From Lentzea aerocolonigenes (GTDB taxonomy: Bacteria; Actinomycetota; Actinomycetes; Mycobacteriales; Pseudonocardiaceae), in the NCBI RefSeq assembly GCF_000955955.1, contig NZ_JYJG01000492.1, positions 1-13,820 on the forward strand: a DNA stretch of 13,820 bases, read 5' to 3'. The stretch's first letter is position 1, and every line of letters begins with the position of its first letter. The notes beneath the pieces were generated by a model. The model was given only the letters and a program-made list of their open reading frames with translations. It made no database searches and had not been told where the DNA came from. A program made the position numbers and the translations under genes. Of this stretch, positions 5,334-12,747 are shown piece after piece.

Positions 5334-5373
5334 GTACTCGTTGATCAGCCCGCGAAGGCTGATCAACGAGTAC
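5334..5373. terminator. Perfect 17-bp hairpin between convergent genes, probable bidirectional terminator
   Basis: GTACTCGTTGATCAGCC (5334-5350) pairs perfectly with GGCTGATCAACGAGTAC (5357-5373) around a six-base loop. It begins eight bases after the protease stop. It also contains the stop codon and last codons of the convergent ABC transporter gene. No long T tract follows on either strand, which is common for actinobacterial terminators. A symmetrical stem between converging genes could stop transcription from both sides. Confidence 0.75.
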
Positions 5374-7180
5374 TGACCGTCTCGTCGAGGAAGCCGCCGG
5401 ACTGGTGGCGCCACAGCTTCGCGTACGTCCCCTCGGCGTCGAGCAGTTCCGCATGGGTGCCCTGTTCGACGATCCGGCCCCGGTCGAGCACGATCAGCCG
5501 ATCCATCCGCACGACCGTGCTCAGCCGGTGTGCGACGACGATCGCGGTGCGGCCCTCCATGAGCCGCCACAGCGCCTCTTGGACCAGCACCTCGCTCTCC
5601 GAGTCCAGCGCGCTGGTCGCCTCGTCCAGCAGCAGGATCGGCGCGTCCCGCAGGATGGCGCGGGCCAGCGCGACCCGCTGCCGCTGTCCGCCGGACAGTT
5701 TGATGCCGCGTTCGCCGACCATCGTGTCGAACCCGTCGGGCAACGCGTCCACGAACTCCGTCACGTGCGCGGCATGCGCGGCGCGGAGGATCTCGGCGTC
5801 GGTCGCGCCCGGCCGTGCGAACGCGATGTTCTCGCGCAGCGTCCGGTGGAACATGGCCGGGTCCTGGGGCACGTACGCGATCAGGCCGCGCAGGTCGGCC
5901 TGACTCAGGCGGGCGATGTCCTGTCCGCCGATGAGGACGCGGCCCCGGTCGACGTCCATCAGCCGCAGGAGCAGCCGGGTGAGCGTGGTCTTGCCGCCGC
6001 CGGAGCGACCGACGAGCCCTATCCGCGTGCCCGCGGGGATGTCGAGGTCGAGCCCGTCGAACAGCGGCTCGTCACCGCCGTGTGTGAACACGACGTTCTC
6101 GAACTGGACTCGGGAGTCCTTCACCAGCAACGGTTCCGGGTGCAACGGGTCGAGCACCGTCGGCGGGTCGAGCAGCAGTTCGGTGAACTGGGCTGCCTCG
6201 GTGAGCGCACTCTCCACCTGCCGGTAGATCTGGTTGAACTCGAACATGATCCGCGTCGCGTTCCCGAAGTAGGCGAACGTGACAACGATCGCCTCCACGC
6301 CGATCCCACCGCTGACCCCGATCGCGACCACGAGGCCGAGCACGTTGGTGAGCACCGACAGCGGCGCGATCACGGTGTCGATGCGCAGGTTGTTGTAGTC
6401 CCACGACCGCAGTGCCAGCGTTCGCTGCTTGGCAGCGCGGGTCCGGTGCTCCGCGCCCTCGCGCCGCTCGGCGGCGAACGCCCGCACGGTATCCATGTTC
6501 GTGAGCGTGTCCGAGACGTGGCCGGACACCTGGGCGATGGCGGCCTCGCGCTGGTCGACCAGCCGCTGACGGTGGCGGATGAGCGGCGCGACCACACATC
6601 CCGTGACCAGGATCAGGCCGACCAGCACCGCGACGAGGACCGGGTGGTAGCTCCACAGCACGACGCAGGCGAAACCCAGCGGGATGAGGTTGGCGAAGAT
6701 CTTGAACGCCAGCGTGTCCACGAAGTCCTCGAAGCGGAACGCGAAGCTCAGCACCCGCTTGGTGAGCGATCCGGCGAAGTTGTCGTGGAAGAACGCCGCG
6801 TCCTTCCTCAACAGCTCGTCCATGGCGAGGGCGGACAGGTTCTCGATCCCGCGGCCGTCAACGCGGTTGAGGCAGTGCATGCCGATGCGCCACAGCAACT
6901 CCGAGAGGAGCATCAAACCGCCGAAGGCCAGCACGTACGGCAGGACGGCACCGAGGCTCGTGTCGCCACCACCCGCAAGCTTTCCCACGAGGCCGCCCAC
7001 CGCCAACGGCGCGAGATAGAGCTGACACGTGACCCCCAGCGCGGGCGACACGAGAGCACCCGCGGAGAGGAATCCGTGGCGCCGCAACTCCTTTCCGTAC
7101 AGGCGCAGAGCGAGCGGCACCGCGTTCTCGCGGACAGGCCTTTCCGTTTCTGGCACGACCCTCCGACCCCCTCCGAACAC
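5363..7180 (-). CDS. ABC transporter half-transporter, exporter type (fused membrane and ATPase domains)
   Basis: This 605-residue protein has the exporter layout. A membrane domain covers about residues 25-320, with hydrophobic segments near 40-65, 80-98, 160-200 and 275-305. The ATPase domain covers about 355-590 and has every hallmark: Walker A GRSGGGKT (391-398), Q-loop Gln439 (YVPQDP), signature LSGGQRQR (495-502), Walker B ILLLDE (515-520) and H-loop His551 (VVAHRLS). It should work as a homodimer or with an unlinked partner, since no second half is adjacent. The substrate (drug, lipid, peptide or siderophore) cannot be told. The GTG start at 7180 has GGGGAAG upstream; a GTG at 7156, preceded by GGAGG only three bases away, is an alternative. 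Its last codons lie inside the terminator stem shared with the protease gene. It follows the regulator gene on the same strand after 150 bases. Confidence 0.93.
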   Translation of the reverse strand: MFGGGRRVVPETERPVRENAVPLALRLYGKELRRHGFLSAGALVSPALGVTCQLYLAPLAVGGLVGKLAGGGDTSLGAVLPYVLAFGGLMLLSELLWRIGMHCLNRVDGRGIENLSALAMDELLRKDAAFFHDNFAGSLTKRVLSFAFRFEDFVDTLAFKIFANLIPLGFACVVLWSYHPVLVAVLVGLILVTGCVVAPLIRHRQRLVDQREAAIAQVSGHVSDTLTNMDTVRAFAAERREGAEHRTRAAKQRTLALRSWDYNNLRIDTVIAPLSVLTNVLGLVVAIGVSGGIGVEAIVVTFAYFGNATRIMFEFNQIYRQVESALTEAAQFTELLLDPPTVLDPLHPEPLLVKDSRVQFENVVFTHGGDEPLFDGLDLDIPAGTRIGLVGRSGGGKTTLTRLLLRLMDVDRGRVLIGGQDIARLSQADLRGLIAYVPQDPAMFHRTLRENIAFARPGATDAEILRAAHAAHVTEFVDALPDGFDTMVGERGIKLSGGQRQRVALARAILRDAPILLLDEATSALDSESEVLVQEALWRLMEGRTAIVVAHRLSTVVRMDRLIVLDRGRIVEQGTHAELLDAEGTYAKLWRHQSGGFLDETVSTR

Positions 7181-7277
7181 CTCAGCTTCCCCATGCTGCC
7201 GCAGAGGGTCTGGTTGCAGCGACCGAATATCACCGCACAGACGCGGCCGGCGGCACTCCCACCGAACGCCGAGGATT

Positions 7278-7290
7278 GTCCTAAAAGGAC
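7278..7290 (-). promoter_or_regulatory. Short palindrome upstream of the ABC transporter gene
   Basis: On the minus strand the sequence reads GTCCTTTTAGGAC: 5-base arms around TTT. It sits about 98 bases before the transporter's GTG and about 41 bases after the end of the regulator gene. It could be an operator for the transporter or a weak hairpin after the regulator. No T tract follows, which favours a binding site. The 150-base gap (7181-7330) otherwise shows no gene and no promoter I can assign. Confidence 0.25.
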
Positions 7291-7330
7291 CTTCAAGCCA
7301 CGAGCTGAGTTCCGGGCGAAGCCGAGCTGT

Positions 7331-8056
7331 TCACACCGGCAGCTCGCCGTACTCCGCGTACTCCCGTGCCCCTCGCGCGCGGAACACCGACCGCGCATGC
7401 GTGAACGCCGCCTCCGCCGCCTCCGCGTCACCCCGGCTCCGGTGCAGCAGCGCGAGGTCGTACTCGGTGCGCGCCCGCCACAGCGGTGTCTCCATGGCGT
7501 CCCAGATCGACATCGCCGCGTCGAGGTAGTCCTGCGCGAGGTCCAGCCGTCCCTCTGCCAGGTGCAGCTGTCCGAGGACGCGCAGGGTGACGGCCTGGCC
7601 CCAGCGGTCGTCCTTGGCGCGGACGGTGGCGAGCACCGCTTCGAGCCGGGGCAGCGCCTCCGCGCTGTGGCCCGACCGCATCTGCGCCTTGGCGTGGGCC
7701 CGCACGGCGTAGGAGTGCATGAGGTCGTCGCCGAGTTCGCCGAAGATCGTGGCGGCGTCGGCGCACAGCGTCATGGACGTCTCGTAGTCCTCGCGCGCCC
7801 GGTGGTAGAGACCCATGCTGCGCAACGACAGTGCGACCCCTCGTCTGCTGCCGGCCCGCCGGTACGCGGCCAGTGACTGCTCCAGGTCCGCCCTCGCCTC
7901 GTCGTACTCGCCCATTTCCAGGCGGACCGAGCCCCTGATCCGCAGCACGTGCCCGATGCCCACCTGGTCGTCGAGCGCCTGGGACAGGGTGGCCGCCTGG
8001 CTCAGGAAGTGCACCGCCTCGGTCAGGTGTCCGGGTTCACGGCACGCGAGACCCAT
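7331..8056 (-). CDS. TPR-domain C-terminal part of the AfsR-like regulator, displaced by a frameshift
   Basis: This 241-residue open frame is built of tetratricopeptide-like helix pairs (for example EYDEARADLEQSLAAYRRAG, GRLDLAQDYLDAAMSIWD and GDAEAAEAAFTHARSVFRARG). It is the natural continuation of the regulator gene upstream. If one copy of the 16-bp repeat at 8138-8169 is removed, the upstream protein reads without a break through RYSQDRFAEARQLFGEAL into this segment, giving one protein of about 1003 residues. The ATG at 8056 has no good ribosome-binding site (GCCGGG at best), so independent translation is doubtful. In AfsR-type regulators the TPR end is thought to sense partners or signals and restrain the NB-ARC switch. 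Either this is the stranded half of a broken gene, or the break is an assembly error. Confidence 0.7.
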   Translation of the reverse strand: MGLACREPGHLTEAVHFLSQAATLSQALDDQVGIGHVLRIRGSVRLEMGEYDEARADLEQSLAAYRRAGSRRGVALSLRSMGLYHRAREDYETSMTLCADAATIFGELGDDLMHSYAVRAHAKAQMRSGHSAEALPRLEAVLATVRAKDDRWGQAVTLRVLGQLHLAEGRLDLAQDYLDAAMSIWDAMETPLWRARTEYDLALLHRSRGDAEAAEAAFTHARSVFRARGAREYAEYGELPV

Positions 8057-10358
8057 CCCGGCGAGTGCGGCGGCTTGGCCGCGGACGTCGTGCAGGTCGC
8101 GGTAGCGGTCCAGCGCCTCGCCGAAGAGCTGGCGGGCCTCGGCGAAGCGGTCCCTCGGCGAAGCGGTCCTGGGAGTACCGCAGACGCGCGAGTTCGGCCA
8201 GCACGTCCGCGGCGAGGCCGGGGTCGCCGACGTGCTGGACCGACGTCATCGCGACGCCGATGATCCGGTCCCTGAGGTCGTGGTTGGTCACCTGCTCGAT
8301 CGCGGTGTGGGCCGAGACGAAGTCGCACACGTGCCGGTGCAGGCCGATGGCGGCGGCGCGTTCGACCGCCACCACGAGCGCCGGTTCCTCATCCCGCAGC
8401 CAGGCGTCGAGGTCGTCGGACAGCCGTTCGGCCATGGCGGTGACGCCGTCGGGTTCCTGGTGCCCGGTGGCCGGACGCCAGGTGGACTCGGCCGGAGGGC
8501 TGTTCACGGCCGTGCAGCTCAGCAGCGCGATCCAGCCGTCCAGAACGCGGGCGATCGACGCGGTCAGCTCGGCGGGCTCGTCGGCCTCGGCTCGTTCGCG
8601 GGCGTAGAGCCGGACCAGGTCGTGCAGCCGGTAGCGCAGGACTCCCGCCGCGTCGGCACCGGACAACGTGGCCAGCTGCGCGTCGACGAGCACCTCCAGA
8701 ACCTTCTCCGCGTCCGCCTCGGACGTCTCGAGCAGCCAGCTCACCACCCAGGTGGAGAAGTCGGGCAGGCCGAGGTGTCCCATCCGGCCCAGTGCCGTGC
8801 GGGCCCCGTCGTCGAGTGCCCGGCAGCTCAACGCGATGCTGCTGCGCACGGCCAGGTCTCCCGCGGAGAGTTCGTTGAGACGGCGGCGTTCGTCGGTCAG
8901 GCGATCGGCGAGGACCCGCAACGGCAGCTGCCGCCGCGAGGCCAGGCGGGCACCGGCGATCCGCAACGCGAGCGGCAGGCGTCCGCACGCGGCGACGATC
9001 CGGTTCGCCGAGTCCACGTTCTCCGCCAGGCGCGCCTCGCCGACGATCCGCGCGAGCATGTCGTACGCCTCGCCGGGCGTCACGAGGTCCAGTTCGGTGA
9101 ACAACGCTCCGGCCAGTCCCGCGAGGCGGTCGCGCGACGAGACGAGCACGGCACAGGAGGCGCCGCCCGGCAGCAGGGGCCGCACCTGTTCCTCGGACGC
9201 GGCGTCGTCGAGCACCACGAGCACCCGGCGGCCGGCGAGCAACGTCCGGTAGAGCTCCTGGCGCTCCTGCGCCGACTCCGGCAACTGACCGGGATCCATC
9301 CCGAGCGCGGTCAGGAACCGGCCCAGGACCTCGCCTGCGGTCGCGGGCAGGTCGCTCGTACCGCGGAGCTCGGCGTAGAGCTGGCCGTCGGGGAAGGACC
9401 GGGCCGCCTCGTGCGCGGCGCGGACGGTCAGCGCGGACTTCCCGCACCCTCCCGGTCCCGCCACGATCTGCACGGCGGATGTCTCCTCGCACAGCAGGGC
9501 GACCAGTTCCTCCAGTTCCCGCGCCCGGCCGGTGAAGTCGGCGAGCGTCGCGGGCAATTGGGCGGGCGCCGTCGCGAGCGCTGTGCGGGCGACCGGTGCC
9601 GCGTCCGCCGCAACCAGCTCCAGGGTGCCGCGCAGGATAGCGGAGTGGATCGTGCCGAGCTCGGCCCCGGGTTCCACGCCGAGCTCGTCGACGAGCGCGT
9701 CCCGGCCCTCCCGGTAGCAGGCGAGCGCGTCGGCCTGCCGTCCCAGCCGGTACAGCGTCACCATGAGCTGCCCGCGCAACCGTTCGTTCACCGGCTGCCG
9801 GGCCACTGCGGCGGTCAGCTCGGCGAGGTGGTCGAATCGGCCGAGGCCCAGCTCGGCCGCGAAGCGTTCCTCCGCAACGGTCACCAGCAGTTCGTCGAGC
9901 CGCCGCGCCTCACCGCTCAGCAGCGTGTCCCGCAGGCCGGACAAGGCGGGACCGCGCGACAGCGCGACCGCCTCCCCGAGCAGCCGCGCCGCCGGCTCAT
10001 GACCGTGAACCTGGCTCTGCTGCCGGGCTTTGCCGAGCAGGACGGCGAGTTCGTCGGCGTCCACCCTGGCGTCGTCGAGGCGGACCAGGTAGCCCTGCGA
10101 CTTGGACATGATCACGTCCGGGGCGCCGTGGTCGGCGAAAGCCTTGCGCAGCTTGGAAACGTACGTCTGGATGAGCGACCGCGCGCTGACGGGCGGTTCC
10201 TCACCCCACAGCAGCTCGACCAGCCGGTTCGCCGGCACCACCCTGCCGCGTTCCAGCACCAGAGCAACCAGCAGCACCTGTGGCTTCAGACCGCCGAGCG
10301 GTACGGATCTGCCGCCCACCACGGCTTCGACCGGACCGAGCAATCGGAACTCCAGCAA
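8037..10358 (-). CDS. AfsR/SARP-type regulator with BTAD and NB-ARC domains, truncated by a frameshift
   Basis: The frame encodes 773 residues. Residues 1-95 form an OmpR-type winged helix (MLEFRLLGPVEAVVGGRSV ... SLIQTYVSKLRKAF), and about 96-245 are the bacterial transcriptional activation domain. An NB-ARC STAND ATPase follows, with Walker A GPGGCGKS (301-308), Walker B VLVVLDDA (379-386), a GLPL-like motif GRLPLAL (459-465) and an MHD-like RLHD (577-580). The TPR region begins after about 690. From about residue 736 the sequence turns into Arg/Pro-rich nonsense (GPLRRGPPALRRGAGP...) and stops, exactly at a 16-bp tandem duplication; the true continuation is in another frame (7331-8056). 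The start is a TTG with GGAGGT six bases upstream. The DNA-binding and ATPase parts remain intact, so the product may still act, perhaps without normal control. It lies 76 bases after the VanX homologue. Confidence 0.85.
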   Translation of the reverse strand: MLEFRLLGPVEAVVGGRSVPLGGLKPQVLLVALVLERGRVVPANRLVELLWGEEPPVSARSLIQTYVSKLRKAFADHGAPDVIMSKSQGYLVRLDDARVDADELAVLLGKARQQSQVHGHEPAARLLGEAVALSRGPALSGLRDTLLSGEARRLDELLVTVAEERFAAELGLGRFDHLAELTAAVARQPVNERLRGQLMVTLYRLGRQADALACYREGRDALVDELGVEPGAELGTIHSAILRGTLELVAADAAPVARTALATAPAQLPATLADFTGRARELEELVALLCEETSAVQIVAGPGGCGKSALTVRAAHEAARSFPDGQLYAELRGTSDLPATAGEVLGRFLTALGMDPGQLPESAQERQELYRTLLAGRRVLVVLDDAASEEQVRPLLPGGASCAVLVSSRDRLAGLAGALFTELDLVTPGEAYDMLARIVGEARLAENVDSANRIVAACGRLPLALRIAGARLASRRQLPLRVLADRLTDERRRLNELSAGDLAVRSSIALSCRALDDGARTALGRMGHLGLPDFSTWVVSWLLETSEADAEKVLEVLVDAQLATLSGADAAGVLRYRLHDLVRLYARERAEADEPAELTASIARVLDGWIALLSCTAVNSPPAESTWRPATGHQEPDGVTAMAERLSDDLDAWLRDEEPALVVAVERAAAIGLHRHVCDFVSAHTAIEQVTNHDLRDRIIGVAMTSVQHVGDPGLAADVLAELARLRYSQDRFAEGPLRRGPPALRRGAGPLPRPARRPRPSRRTRRDGSRVP
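8138..8169. repeat. Perfect 16-bp tandem duplication causing a frameshift
   Basis: CTCGGCGAAGCGGTCC occurs twice with no spacer, at 8138-8153 and 8154-8169. Sixteen is not a multiple of three, so the extra copy shifts the reading frame of the AfsR-like gene. With one copy deleted, the minus strand reads on as a normal TPR helix (DRFAEARQLFGEALDRYRDL). The duplication is therefore the lesion that splits the gene. Confidence 0.9.
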
Positions 10359-10364
10359 ATCGTG

Positions 10365-10370
10365 ACCTCC
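10365..10370 (-). promoter_or_regulatory. Ribosome-binding site that fixes a TTG start for the AfsR-like gene
   Basis: The minus strand reads GGAGGT, then six bases (CACGAT), then TTG CTG GAG TTC. This near-perfect Shine-Dalgarno sequence supports the TTG at 10356-10358. The resulting N-terminus, MLEFRLLGPVEA, is what family members show at the start of the winged helix. Confidence 0.75.
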
Positions 10371-10434
10371 CCGGCGTCACCACCGCAAGTAGATCACACC
10401 CGCCGGGGGTCGGAGTTCTGGAAATGCGGATATA

Positions 10435-11067
10435 TCAAGGAACAATGGGCCCGTAGACGGCTTGGGGCGATCCCGTCAGGTACGCCCAGTACCGATCGCC
10501 GTAAGACCAGTGCCACCACGCGCTCGGGTAGTTGACCAGTCCGGCGCCGCGCAACGCCTGCGCGAGGACGGCGCGGTGGTGTCGTGCGGTGGCGTCCACC
10601 GCGGGATCTTCGGTGTGAGAGCGCTCCGCCGCGGTGTCGTTGACCGCGGTGCCCAGATCGAGCTCGATCTCGTCCACCGTGCACAGGCTCAGGTCCACCG
10701 CCGCCCCGGCGACGTGCGGTGCCACCTCGGGAGGCGAACTGCGCACGCTCGCCATCTGGCGCAGCTCCGGCTCGCCGGCCCGCGGTGAGCGCGCACGGGA
10801 CTCCGCGACGGCCGACTCGAACGACGCGATCTGCAGCGCCTGCGGCCGGTACCCCTCGACGATCAGCAGTCTCAGCTCCGCCGGCAGCAACGTCTGCGCG
10901 GTGACCAGCCGGTCCACCACACCGATCCGCAAGTGCGCGTACAACCCTTCCTCGTCGGCAAGCCGGCTGTCGAGCCGAAGAGCGGCAACAGTGCGCAGGT
11001 CGACCAGGGGCTCGCCGCGCTCGCGCACCGGGATCGCCGCCACAGCGGGATCCGACAGCCACACCAT
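10435..11067 (-). CDS. VanX-type D-alanyl-D-alanine dipeptidase homologue (M15D) lacking the catalytic glutamate
   Basis: The 210-residue protein has no signal peptide and resembles the cytoplasmic VanX family, zinc enzymes that hydrolyse D-Ala-D-Ala. From the ATG, the transition-state arginine is Arg74 (VEGYRP), and the zinc ligands are His118 and Asp125 (HVAGAAVDLSL) and His186. The last motif is normally ExWH-like (EWWH), with Glu as general base. Here it reads NYPSAWWHWSYGDRYW, with Ala183 in that place; GCG instead of GAG is a one-base difference. The enzyme is predicted to be impaired or repurposed. I chose the ATG at 11067, giving MVWLSDPAVAAIPVRE, with GAGAGG eight bases upstream. A TTG at 11073 has AGGAGG at seven bases, and a GTG at 11115 would add 16 residues. 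No vanH or vanA homologue is adjacent, so this is not a resistance cluster. Confidence 0.85.
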   Translation of the reverse strand: MVWLSDPAVAAIPVRERGEPLVDLRTVAALRLDSRLADEEGLYAHLRIGVVDRLVTAQTLLPAELRLLIVEGYRPQALQIASFESAVAESRARSPRAGEPELRQMASVRSSPPEVAPHVAGAAVDLSLCTVDEIELDLGTAVNDTAAERSHTEDPAVDATARHHRAVLAQALRGAGLVNYPSAWWHWSYGDRYWAYLTGSPQAVYGPIVP

Positions 11068-11124
11068 CTCCAACGCCTCTCCTCCTGGTTCACCGTTCTG
11101 AACACGCGGTCGCACGGTGCACGC

Positions 11125-11169
11125 ACGTACTGGAATTTTTCTTTAACGCGACGTACGTCCGTCCGGACG
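11125..11169. promoter_or_regulatory. AT-rich island with palindromes between the VanX homologue and the CHAP gene
   Basis: A short AT-rich run (GGAATTTTTCTTTAA) stands out in GC-rich DNA. ACGTAC (11125-11130) lies on its left. On its right are the perfect 10-bp palindromes GACGTACGTC (11150-11159) and CGTCCGGACG (11160-11169). This lies 58-102 bases upstream of the VanX-homologue ATG and more than 165 bases upstream of the CHAP start, so it may hold a promoter and operators, most likely for the former. No sigma-factor motif is certain. Confidence 0.3.
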
Positions 11170-11240
11170 CGGCCGGCGCGTCCGATGGCGCGCACCTGGC
11201 GGCACGACGCCGTGCGCACGCGTGCTGGGCTGCGGTTAAA

Positions 11241-11313
11241 GGTTTCGTGGACCGTCTTGAAACCCCTCCTGGCGAATCTTGGATCCATCACCGGCCGGAC
11301 ACCGACCGGATCC
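11241..11313 (+). promoter_or_regulatory. Upstream region of the CHAP-repeat gene with two short repeats
   Basis: GGTTTC (11241-11246) and GAAACC (11259-11264) form a 6-bp inverted repeat with a 12-base spacer. Downstream, GGATCC occurs at 11281-11286 and again at 11308-11313 and could pair in the transcript. TTGAAA (11257-11262) and TTGGAT (11279-11284), 16 bases apart, make a weak -35/-10 pair. The coding start is 24 bases beyond the second GGATCC. All assignments here are tentative. Confidence 0.22.
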
Positions 11314-11337: not shown

Positions 11338-12747
11338 GTGTTCCGATCAGGAATCAGCCGCACCGGCACCGAGTCCAAGTCCGTCGGCACCGGGCTGCGC
11401 AAGACCACCCGCACCGTGCTGTCCGCGGCGCTGGCCGTGATGGCCGGCACCGTCCTGATGGCACCGCCCGCAAGCGCCGCCCCGTCCAGAGACCGCATCG
11501 TCGACGTCGCCGCCGGCAAGGTGGGCGAGGACGCCTGCTCGCCCGGCTTCTTCAACAGCTGCGGCATGGCGTGGTGCGCGGAGTTCGCCCGCTGGGTGTG
11601 GAAGGAGGGCGGCGTCTCGGATCTCAAGGGCCTCGACGGCTGGGCGCAGTCGTTCAAGACCTACGGCAAGAACAACGGGACGTACCACTCACGGTCCAGT
11701 GGGTACAAGCCGCAACCCGGCGACGCCATCGTGTTCGACTGGGACCACAAGTCGGGCGACGACCACCCGATCGACCACGTGGCCATCGTGACGAGCTCCT
11801 CCGCCACCACGGTCAACACCATCGGCGGCAACCAGGGTGACCCGAGCCGGGTCCGGAAGTCGAGCTACCAGCGTTCGAACGGCGACATCGACGGCTACAT
11901 CTCCCCCGTGGGCATCGGCGACGGCGGTGGCGGCGGCGAGAAGCCGGTCGTGAACCACAGCGTCACCGGCGACTCGTTCACGGACCTGGTGGGACGCAAG
12001 CCCGACGGCACCATCTGGGCGTACAACAACAACATCCTCCGCGACAACGGCGTCCCGTACACCTCCGGCCGCGAGATCGGCCACGGCTGGAACGCCTTCG
12101 ACACCGTCCTGTCCGCGGACGTGACCGGCGACGGCTACACGGACCTGGTGGCACGCAAGCCCGACGGCACGTTGTGGCTGTACGCCAACGACAGCAAGAA
12201 CGACGGCCTGCCCTACAGCTCCGGCCGCCAGATCGGCAACGGCTGGAACGTCTTCGACACCATCGTCGGTGCCGACCTGACCGGTGACGGCTACGCCGAG
12301 CTCGTCGGACGCAAGCCGGACGGCACGATCTGGATGTACGCCAACAACATCGTCCGCGACAACGGCAAGCCCTACAGCTCGGGCCGCGAGATCGGCCACG
12401 GCTGGAACGTGTTCGACATGCTGGTCGCGGCCGACGTGACCGGTGACGGCTACGCGGAGATGGTGGGACGCAAGGCGGACGGCACGTTGTGGATGTATGC
12501 CAACAACATCGTCCGAGACAACGGCCAGCCGTACAGCTCGGGCCGCGAGATCGGCCACGGCTGGAACGCGTTCGACACGATCATCGGTGCGAACGTGACC
12601 GGTGACGCCTTCGCCGACCTCGTCGCCCGCAAGGCAGACGGCACGATCCTGCTGTACTCCAACAACATCCTGCGCGACAACGGCCAGCCGTACAGCTCCG
12701 GCCGCCAGATCGGCAGCAGCTGGAACATCTTCGACGTCATCATGTGA
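11338..12747 (+). CDS. Secreted CHAP-domain hydrolase with five C-terminal propeller-like repeats
   Basis: The 469-residue protein starts at GTG with GAGGAG six bases upstream. A long, Arg/Lys-containing signal peptide probably ends after ASA at residue 47. A CHAP (amidase/endopeptidase) domain covers about 50-190, with candidate catalytic Cys80 (MAWCAEF), His147 (DHVAIV) and Asn165 (GGNQGD). Cys67 and Cys75 could form a disulfide. A Gly-rich linker (DGGGGGEKP) leads to five repeats of 52-53 residues at 207-259, 260-311, 312-364, 365-417 and 418-469. Each has the pattern xxVTGDGYxDLVxRKxDGTxWxYxNN followed by GRxIGxGWNxFD. CHAP enzymes cut peptidoglycan peptides or the amide to muramic acid. 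The repeats resemble FG-GAP/VCBS-like and tachylectin-like propeller blades that may bind Ca2+ and sugar. The frame is open far upstream, but the signal peptide and ribosome-binding site support this start. It is divergent from the VanX homologue. Confidence 0.9.
   Translation: MFRSGISRTGTESKSVGTGLRKTTRTVLSAALAVMAGTVLMAPPASAAPSRDRIVDVAAGKVGEDACSPGFFNSCGMAWCAEFARWVWKEGGVSDLKGLDGWAQSFKTYGKNNGTYHSRSSGYKPQPGDAIVFDWDHKSGDDHPIDHVAIVTSSSATTVNTIGGNQGDPSRVRKSSYQRSNGDIDGYISPVGIGDGGGGGEKPVVNHSVTGDSFTDLVGRKPDGTIWAYNNNILRDNGVPYTSGREIGHGWNAFDTVLSADVTGDGYTDLVARKPDGTLWLYANDSKNDGLPYSSGRQIGNGWNVFDTIVGADLTGDGYAELVGRKPDGTIWMYANNIVRDNGKPYSSGREIGHGWNVFDMLVAADVTGDGYAEMVGRKADGTLWMYANNIVRDNGQPYSSGREIGHGWNAFDTIIGANVTGDAFADLVARKADGTILLYSNNILRDNGQPYSSGRQIGSSWNIFDVIM
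11956..12744 (+). repeat. Five tandem 156-159-bp coding repeats
   Basis: The repeats start at 11956, 12115, 12271, 12430 and 12589 and encode 53, 52, 53, 53 and 52 residues. Copies three and four are the most alike, with near-identical stretches such as MYANNIVRDNG and PYSSGREIGHGWN. Copies one and five have lost part of the DxTGDGxxD loop (SVTGDSFTD and NVTGDAFAD). The close likeness suggests duplication within the gene. Confidence 0.85.

Follow-up and report, generated by a model that had tools for sequence, protein, structure and literature searches.

AfsR of Streptomyces coelicolor and other large SARPs (STAND) carry a winged helix-turn-helix (wHTH), a BTAD, an NB-ARC and a C-terminal TPR part, in this order and commonly within about 1000 residues. 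In AfsR, according to the available portion of PMC10936776, the SARP domain spans residues 1–270, the NOD 271–618, an arm 619–777 and the TPR part 778–993, and an essential role in vivo is reported for the NOD. The same portion states that the isolated SARP domain is a stronger transcriptional activator than either full-length AfsR or AfsR without the TPR part, and that forms without the TPR part still bind and activate in vitro; the TPR-less form is set there against the SARP domain and not directly against full-length AfsR.

Two other described systems are close to the locus reported here. Change in tandem-repeat copy number is reported elsewhere as phase variation, with promoter repeats of Mycobacterium tuberculosis as an example in the accessible part of that source (PMC12817950). 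Pseudogenes made by a short tandem duplication, for their part, have two perfect copies, a unit length not divisible by three and a C-terminal part left intact out of frame.

We analyzed a window of 13,820 bp, which is one whole contig (C147) of a 10.25-Mb Lentzea draft assembly of 648 contigs (G000). It contains a regulator gene whose intact orthologues have the domain order and size of the large SARPs and whose TPR part, unlike that of S. coelicolor AfsR, stands out of frame. Word searches of an open-access library listed no publication about this locus, nor any about natural frameshifts in large SARPs of Lentzea.

A frame break at a 16-bp tandem duplication

The regulator is read from a 773-codon ORF on the minus strand (10358–8037) that starts with TTG at 10358, preceded by a good ribosome-binding site (GGGGAGG), and agrees with its close orthologues through residue 735. 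Pfam and orthologue alignment assign these 735 codons (8154–10358, minus strand) to the N-terminal portion of a large SARP, including the start of the TPR part. The wHTH (residues 29–91), BTAD (99–242) and NB-ARC (282–492) domains all lie within them and are untouched by the lesion. Comparison with orthologues identified the next 38 codons (residues 736–773; 8037–8153, minus strand) as out of frame and ending in a premature stop. The C-terminal 268 codons (7331–8137, minus strand), placed by the same two methods, continue in another frame, and their four TPR_12 stretches were found by Pfam solely in that shifted frame.

The sequence CTCGGCGAAGCGGTCC is present twice, head to tail and perfect in both copies, at this break. 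The copy that comes first in gene direction (8154–8169, minus strand) still keeps the regulator frame; with the second (8138–8153, minus strand) a net excess of 16 bp shifts it, the choice of which copy is the extra one being arbitrary. TRF reported an array at 8137–8169 (one additional matching base being counted at 8137) with a period of 16, 100% matches and a score of 66, the top-scoring short array in the window. When 2 Mb were simulated under an order-3 Markov model fitted to the base statistics of the genome, perfect tandem repeats with periods above 12 did not occur. Across the 10.25-Mb assembly the 16-mer has three occurrences, namely the two tandem copies and one single copy on another contig. 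The single copy lies within an unrelated ORF (L004 position 2016; G000:C411:4615), probably by chance.

The orthologue alignment, the codon-position composition and a frame scan blind to repeats agreed on the site of the break. GC content by codon position changes over between 8169 and 8137 and is retained as a coding pattern in the C-terminal part, and the scan returned a single transition in the window, at 8152. The reading of the earlier note, namely a perfect 16-bp duplication that breaks the frame of an AfsR-like regulator, spares its three N-terminal domains and removes about a quarter of a protein of some 1003 residues, is thus borne out: by comparison with intact relatives the joined protein has 735 + 268 = 1003 residues, and 268/1003 is 27%.

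With respect to class, PF00486 (winged helix) and PF03704 (BTAD) scored above their cut-offs at the N-terminus, and PF00931 (NB-ARC) scored 53.9 bits in the central part against a cut-off of 23.5. The C-terminal TPR part is outside the present product and is fused to the other domains in 10/10 close orthologues. From these profiles, the gene derives from a large SARP, and its current product would lack the C-terminal TPR. The NCBIfam AfsR equivalog model NF053617 gave 523.8 bits against a cut-off of 1430, with the truncated protein as the one scored; because of this difference the regulator is probably a paralogue of AfsR rather than AfsR itself. The genome contains 43 AfsR-like matches at E ≤ 1e-50.

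Orthologues and the age of the lesion

Ten close orthologues (P0001–P0010), seven of them from Lentzea, on which basis the genome is assigned to that genus, were 78–92% identical and 989–1026 aa long, and all ten listed were continuous. The residues matched by the two parts of the window gene are adjacent in every one of them (for example, 721|722 in P0001 and 736|737 in P0002), and judged at the protein level none has an extra copy or a conserved split. The comparison with relatives proposed in the earlier note came out with uninterrupted genes in 10/10 close orthologues. N-terminal and C-terminal identities were 91.6/92.5% for P0001, 91.1/93.7% for P0003 and 89.9/87.6% for P0002. One lesion between equally conserved parts is the pattern of a recent frameshift pseudogene, and the lesion looks recent because the two parts are equally conserved.

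Among the other 23 genomes of the genus, the top match reached 48% in the matches listed, and by this comparison the regulator gene is accessory in the genus. A relative from Catellatospora (P0067, 756 aa, 51%) terminates in the same TPR as the window lesion. Two further matches are incomplete: P0122 consists of a C-terminal fragment only (147 aa, 94% identical), and P0124 (Lentzea sp., 229 aa) begins inside the protein and is without about 113 TPR residues. Their N-terminal halves were absent among the matches listed in searches covering proteins of about 165–1352 residues. At the level of sequence, P0122 and P0124 suggest repeated loss of the regulator gene; they might also be gene calls at contig edges.

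The same two proteins bear on a reading in which the gene is functionally split, with a truncated SARP-NOD protein and a TPR protein restarted through translational coupling. The internal ATG at 8056 starts a 241-codon ORF whose first 20 nt are shared with the end of the upstream ORF, an arrangement that speaks for coupling, but no clear ribosome-binding site was found ahead of this ATG and the two parts are fused in all ten close orthologues. Searched against proteins of about 133–422 aa, the 241-residue fragment returned six matches at E ≤ 1e-40: besides P0122 and P0124, these were four proteins whose contigs are shorter than 3 kb and which may be cut off by the contig end. We find a functional split barely credible.

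The same lesion type elsewhere and its origin

Perfect tandem duplications of at least 13 bp whose length is not divisible by three were counted, non-primitive arrays being left out, in a G000 sample of 1,199,600 bases; ten N runs in it (12,778 bases), each an entire masked short contig, leave 1,186,822 unmasked bases. Seven were found. Five (L063, L067, L071, L168 and L176) lie between genes or at gene ends as judged by eye, including L063, for which the automatic classifier called a frame shift of the expected step and where the upstream gene stops before the repeat. The classifier also flagged L039, L057 and L096, of multiple-of-three length, for steps that their duplications cannot explain. 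An extra 106,358 bases of G000 loci held no such duplication.

The remaining two break genes. L175 (G000:C32:7951–7982) is a perfect tandem duplication of 16 bp inside the gene of a LacZ-type beta-galactosidase, which it splits. The NCBIfam matches of the gene fragment are below their cut-offs; in 12 other genomes the orthologues align as far as query residue 366, which lies just beyond the lesion, and their open frames are 917–1251 aa in 11 genomes and 721 aa in G010, a relative assembled as one contig. L166 (G000:C22:3120–3147), a perfect tandem duplication of 14 bp, interrupts egtB (a gene of ergothioneine biosynthesis) about 24 codons past the inferred start; egtB scores above its NCBIfam cut-off and is matched in 24/24 genomes of the genus. 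The site is single-copy in 5/5 relatives compared (nine loci, of which four on the other strand were excluded). From a TTG within the second copy the other 407 codons form an open frame, so that the cell might still produce an almost complete EgtB. The regulator is therefore not special as a lesion site, two unrelated genes of the assembly carrying the same kind of lesion.

We lean towards a recent, real 16-bp tandem duplication as the event that put this large SARP gene out of frame. It would have arisen by filling in and joining of a staggered break, nearly without flanking homology; slippage between repeats is less expected. Three Ku matches above cut-off were found in the genome. The junctions of the three frame-breaking duplications have 1 bp (regulator), 0 and 0 bp of microhomology, and microhomology-driven slippage was rejected on these values. 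A common target motif was likewise set aside: GCGGT was seen by eye at 3/3 duplications and is a frequent, hand-picked 5-mer. The lesions share with pseudogenes made by short tandem duplication the features listed above; unlike the usual cases, one assembly contains three of them within about 1.2 Mb, at 0–1 bp of microhomology, and they may come from the cell or from the assembly.

The competing explanation, a possible one that we take seriously without favoring it, is an error of assembly or consensus in which pieces overlapping by 14–16 bp were joined end to end unmerged, the gene being intact in the cell. Unmerged overlaps and the fill-in of a staggered break would look alike at these sites. 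The draft state of the assembly (648 contigs) and the occurrence of perfect two-copy duplications of 16, 16 and 14 bp in three genes, with 0–1 bp of additional matching, agree with such an error, as does the damage to egtB, which is unexpected because every one of the 24 genomes has a match to this gene. Frame-breaking duplications were recognised neither in 0.8 Mb of G010 nor in 0.29 Mb of relatives' loci (292,140 bases, which may overlap each other and include some G010). At a rate of two per 1.25 Mb, the probability of zero events in 1.09 Mb is P = 0.175, a comparison of low power, and the difference in duplications between G000 and its relatives is suggestive and not significant. The G010 sample has two perfect duplications of at least 13 bp whose length is not divisible by three, L133 at a strand change and L117, which is ambiguous; the relatives' loci have none.

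Frame transitions point in both directions on the question of assembly error. One of 13 transitions in G000 fell on a duplication of at least 13 bp and of a length not divisible by three, compared with 0/38 in G010; a second G000 transition (L039) coincides with a 15-bp duplication. Frame breaks overall, however, are fewer in G000, with 13 in 1.187 Mb (11.0 per Mb) vs 38 in 0.8 Mb of G010 (47.5 per Mb), in loose counts that contain false positives and were made with a codon model trained on G010. On these counts the idea that G000 has frameshifts in general excess was rejected. The scan missed egtB because its upstream part is too short. The 38 apparent transitions in G010 (loci L097–L136), over fourfold as frequent per Mb as in the draft, are perhaps sequencing errors.

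Several further points count against an assembly error. A stretch of 33 bp fits in a short read, and assemblers usually resolve it. The sampled contigs have no N gaps inside them, and unmerged overlaps at N gaps were thereby ruled out. Perfect duplications of at least 15 bp with a multiple-of-three length are as common in G010 (18 in 0.8 Mb) as in G000 (13 in 1.2 Mb), which indicates that perfect duplications arise naturally, and two further orthologues of the regulator, P0122 and P0124, seem broken. In a separate look at shorter units, no frame-breaking duplication with the expected shift was found at periods of 7–12 in either sample, with about half of the sites unclassed; at periods of 5–6, shifts of the expected step were about as frequent as others (9 vs 7 in G000, 12 vs 9 in G010). 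The caution of the earlier note about an artefact gained weight from the duplications in the beta-galactosidase gene and egtB.

It is unlikely, in our estimate, that a process of the strain or lineage writes perfect 14–16-bp tandem duplications nearly without microhomology, for example by Ku-dependent fill-in joining or by precise loss of a mobile element, which would leave both copies of its target-site duplication. Such a process would mean recent and in principle revertible knock-outs across accessory and conserved genes (the regulator, beta-galactosidase and egtB).

The earlier note had also raised a switch between full-length and truncated states. In this reading, copies would be lost and gained by slippage and a mixed population of both forms would toggle the neighboring genes. 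Dropping one of two tandem copies is easy in principle and the C-terminal part is undecayed, and the locus shares with phase-variable repeats such as the M. tuberculosis promoter repeats, as far as the accessible text of PMC12817950 describes them, that copy number in principle decides output. Unlike those repeats, it has two copies only, shows no sign of switching or hypermutability, and its duplication is absent from the close orthologues; a repeat tract kept in relatives, as at a phase-variable locus, was seen in 0/10 of them at the protein level. The 1 bp of flanking homology leaves little to help re-form the duplication, and the same lesion type in unrelated genes gives no sign of selection for switching at the regulator. 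A hairpin-driven origin was rejected as well, the folding of the single strand around the repeat having a z of −1.17 with 29/200 shuffles as good or better. On these grounds the switch is unsupported and very improbable.

Predicted effect on the regulator and its neighbors

If the frame break is real, the product would have 773 residues, made up of wHTH, BTAD, NB-ARC, an equivalent of the AfsR arm (the stretch after NB-ARC, by analogy), the start of the TPR part and 38 wrong residues. It would resemble TPR-less AfsR with 38 wrong residues added, because the break sits at the start of the TPR part. With the TPR sensor lost, the regulator would most likely be unresponsive or unstable and in effect a pseudogene, not a constitutive activator. 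The constitutive activity suggested in the earlier note is weakened by the lower activation of TPR-less AfsR than of the SARP domain alone; it keeps some ground in that TPR-less forms activate in vitro, so that a truncated product need not be inactive (both from the available portion of PMC10936776).

An ABC exporter gene, with a membrane domain fused to an ATPase (5363–7180, minus strand), lies 150 bp downstream of the regulator and is a possible target of the regulator or a possible victim of polarity, which may lower its expression. An M15 peptidase gene (PF01427; 10435–11115, minus strand) lies 76 bp upstream; NCBIfam dipeptidase models scored it below their cut-offs. The peptidase, regulator and exporter genes stand in a row on the minus strand (5363–11115) and are possibly one unit. 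A promoter and terminator scan of 7000–11300 found nothing between the regulator and its neighbors, which is weak evidence in a GC-rich genome, and an Rfam search gave no match. Elsewhere in the window, a 159-bp unit array of 4.8 copies (11983–12735) encodes FG-GAP-like repeats behind a CHAP domain, and a SigE-family ECF sigma factor precedes an ORF that neither Pfam nor NCBIfam matched and that is possibly its partner (88–1652).

Overall, the locus is best read as a commonplace frameshift of recent date or as an error of the assembly, rather than as a special genetic switch, and the wider point is that three genes within about 1.2 Mb bear this type of duplication. If it is an artefact, the assembly breaks genes through unmerged short overlaps and its frameshifts are not to be taken as biology. 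If it is real, one of the more than 40 AfsR-like regulators of this genome would have lost its sensor half recently and naturally, and would be useful mainly as a natural truncation for comparison with the intact relatives.
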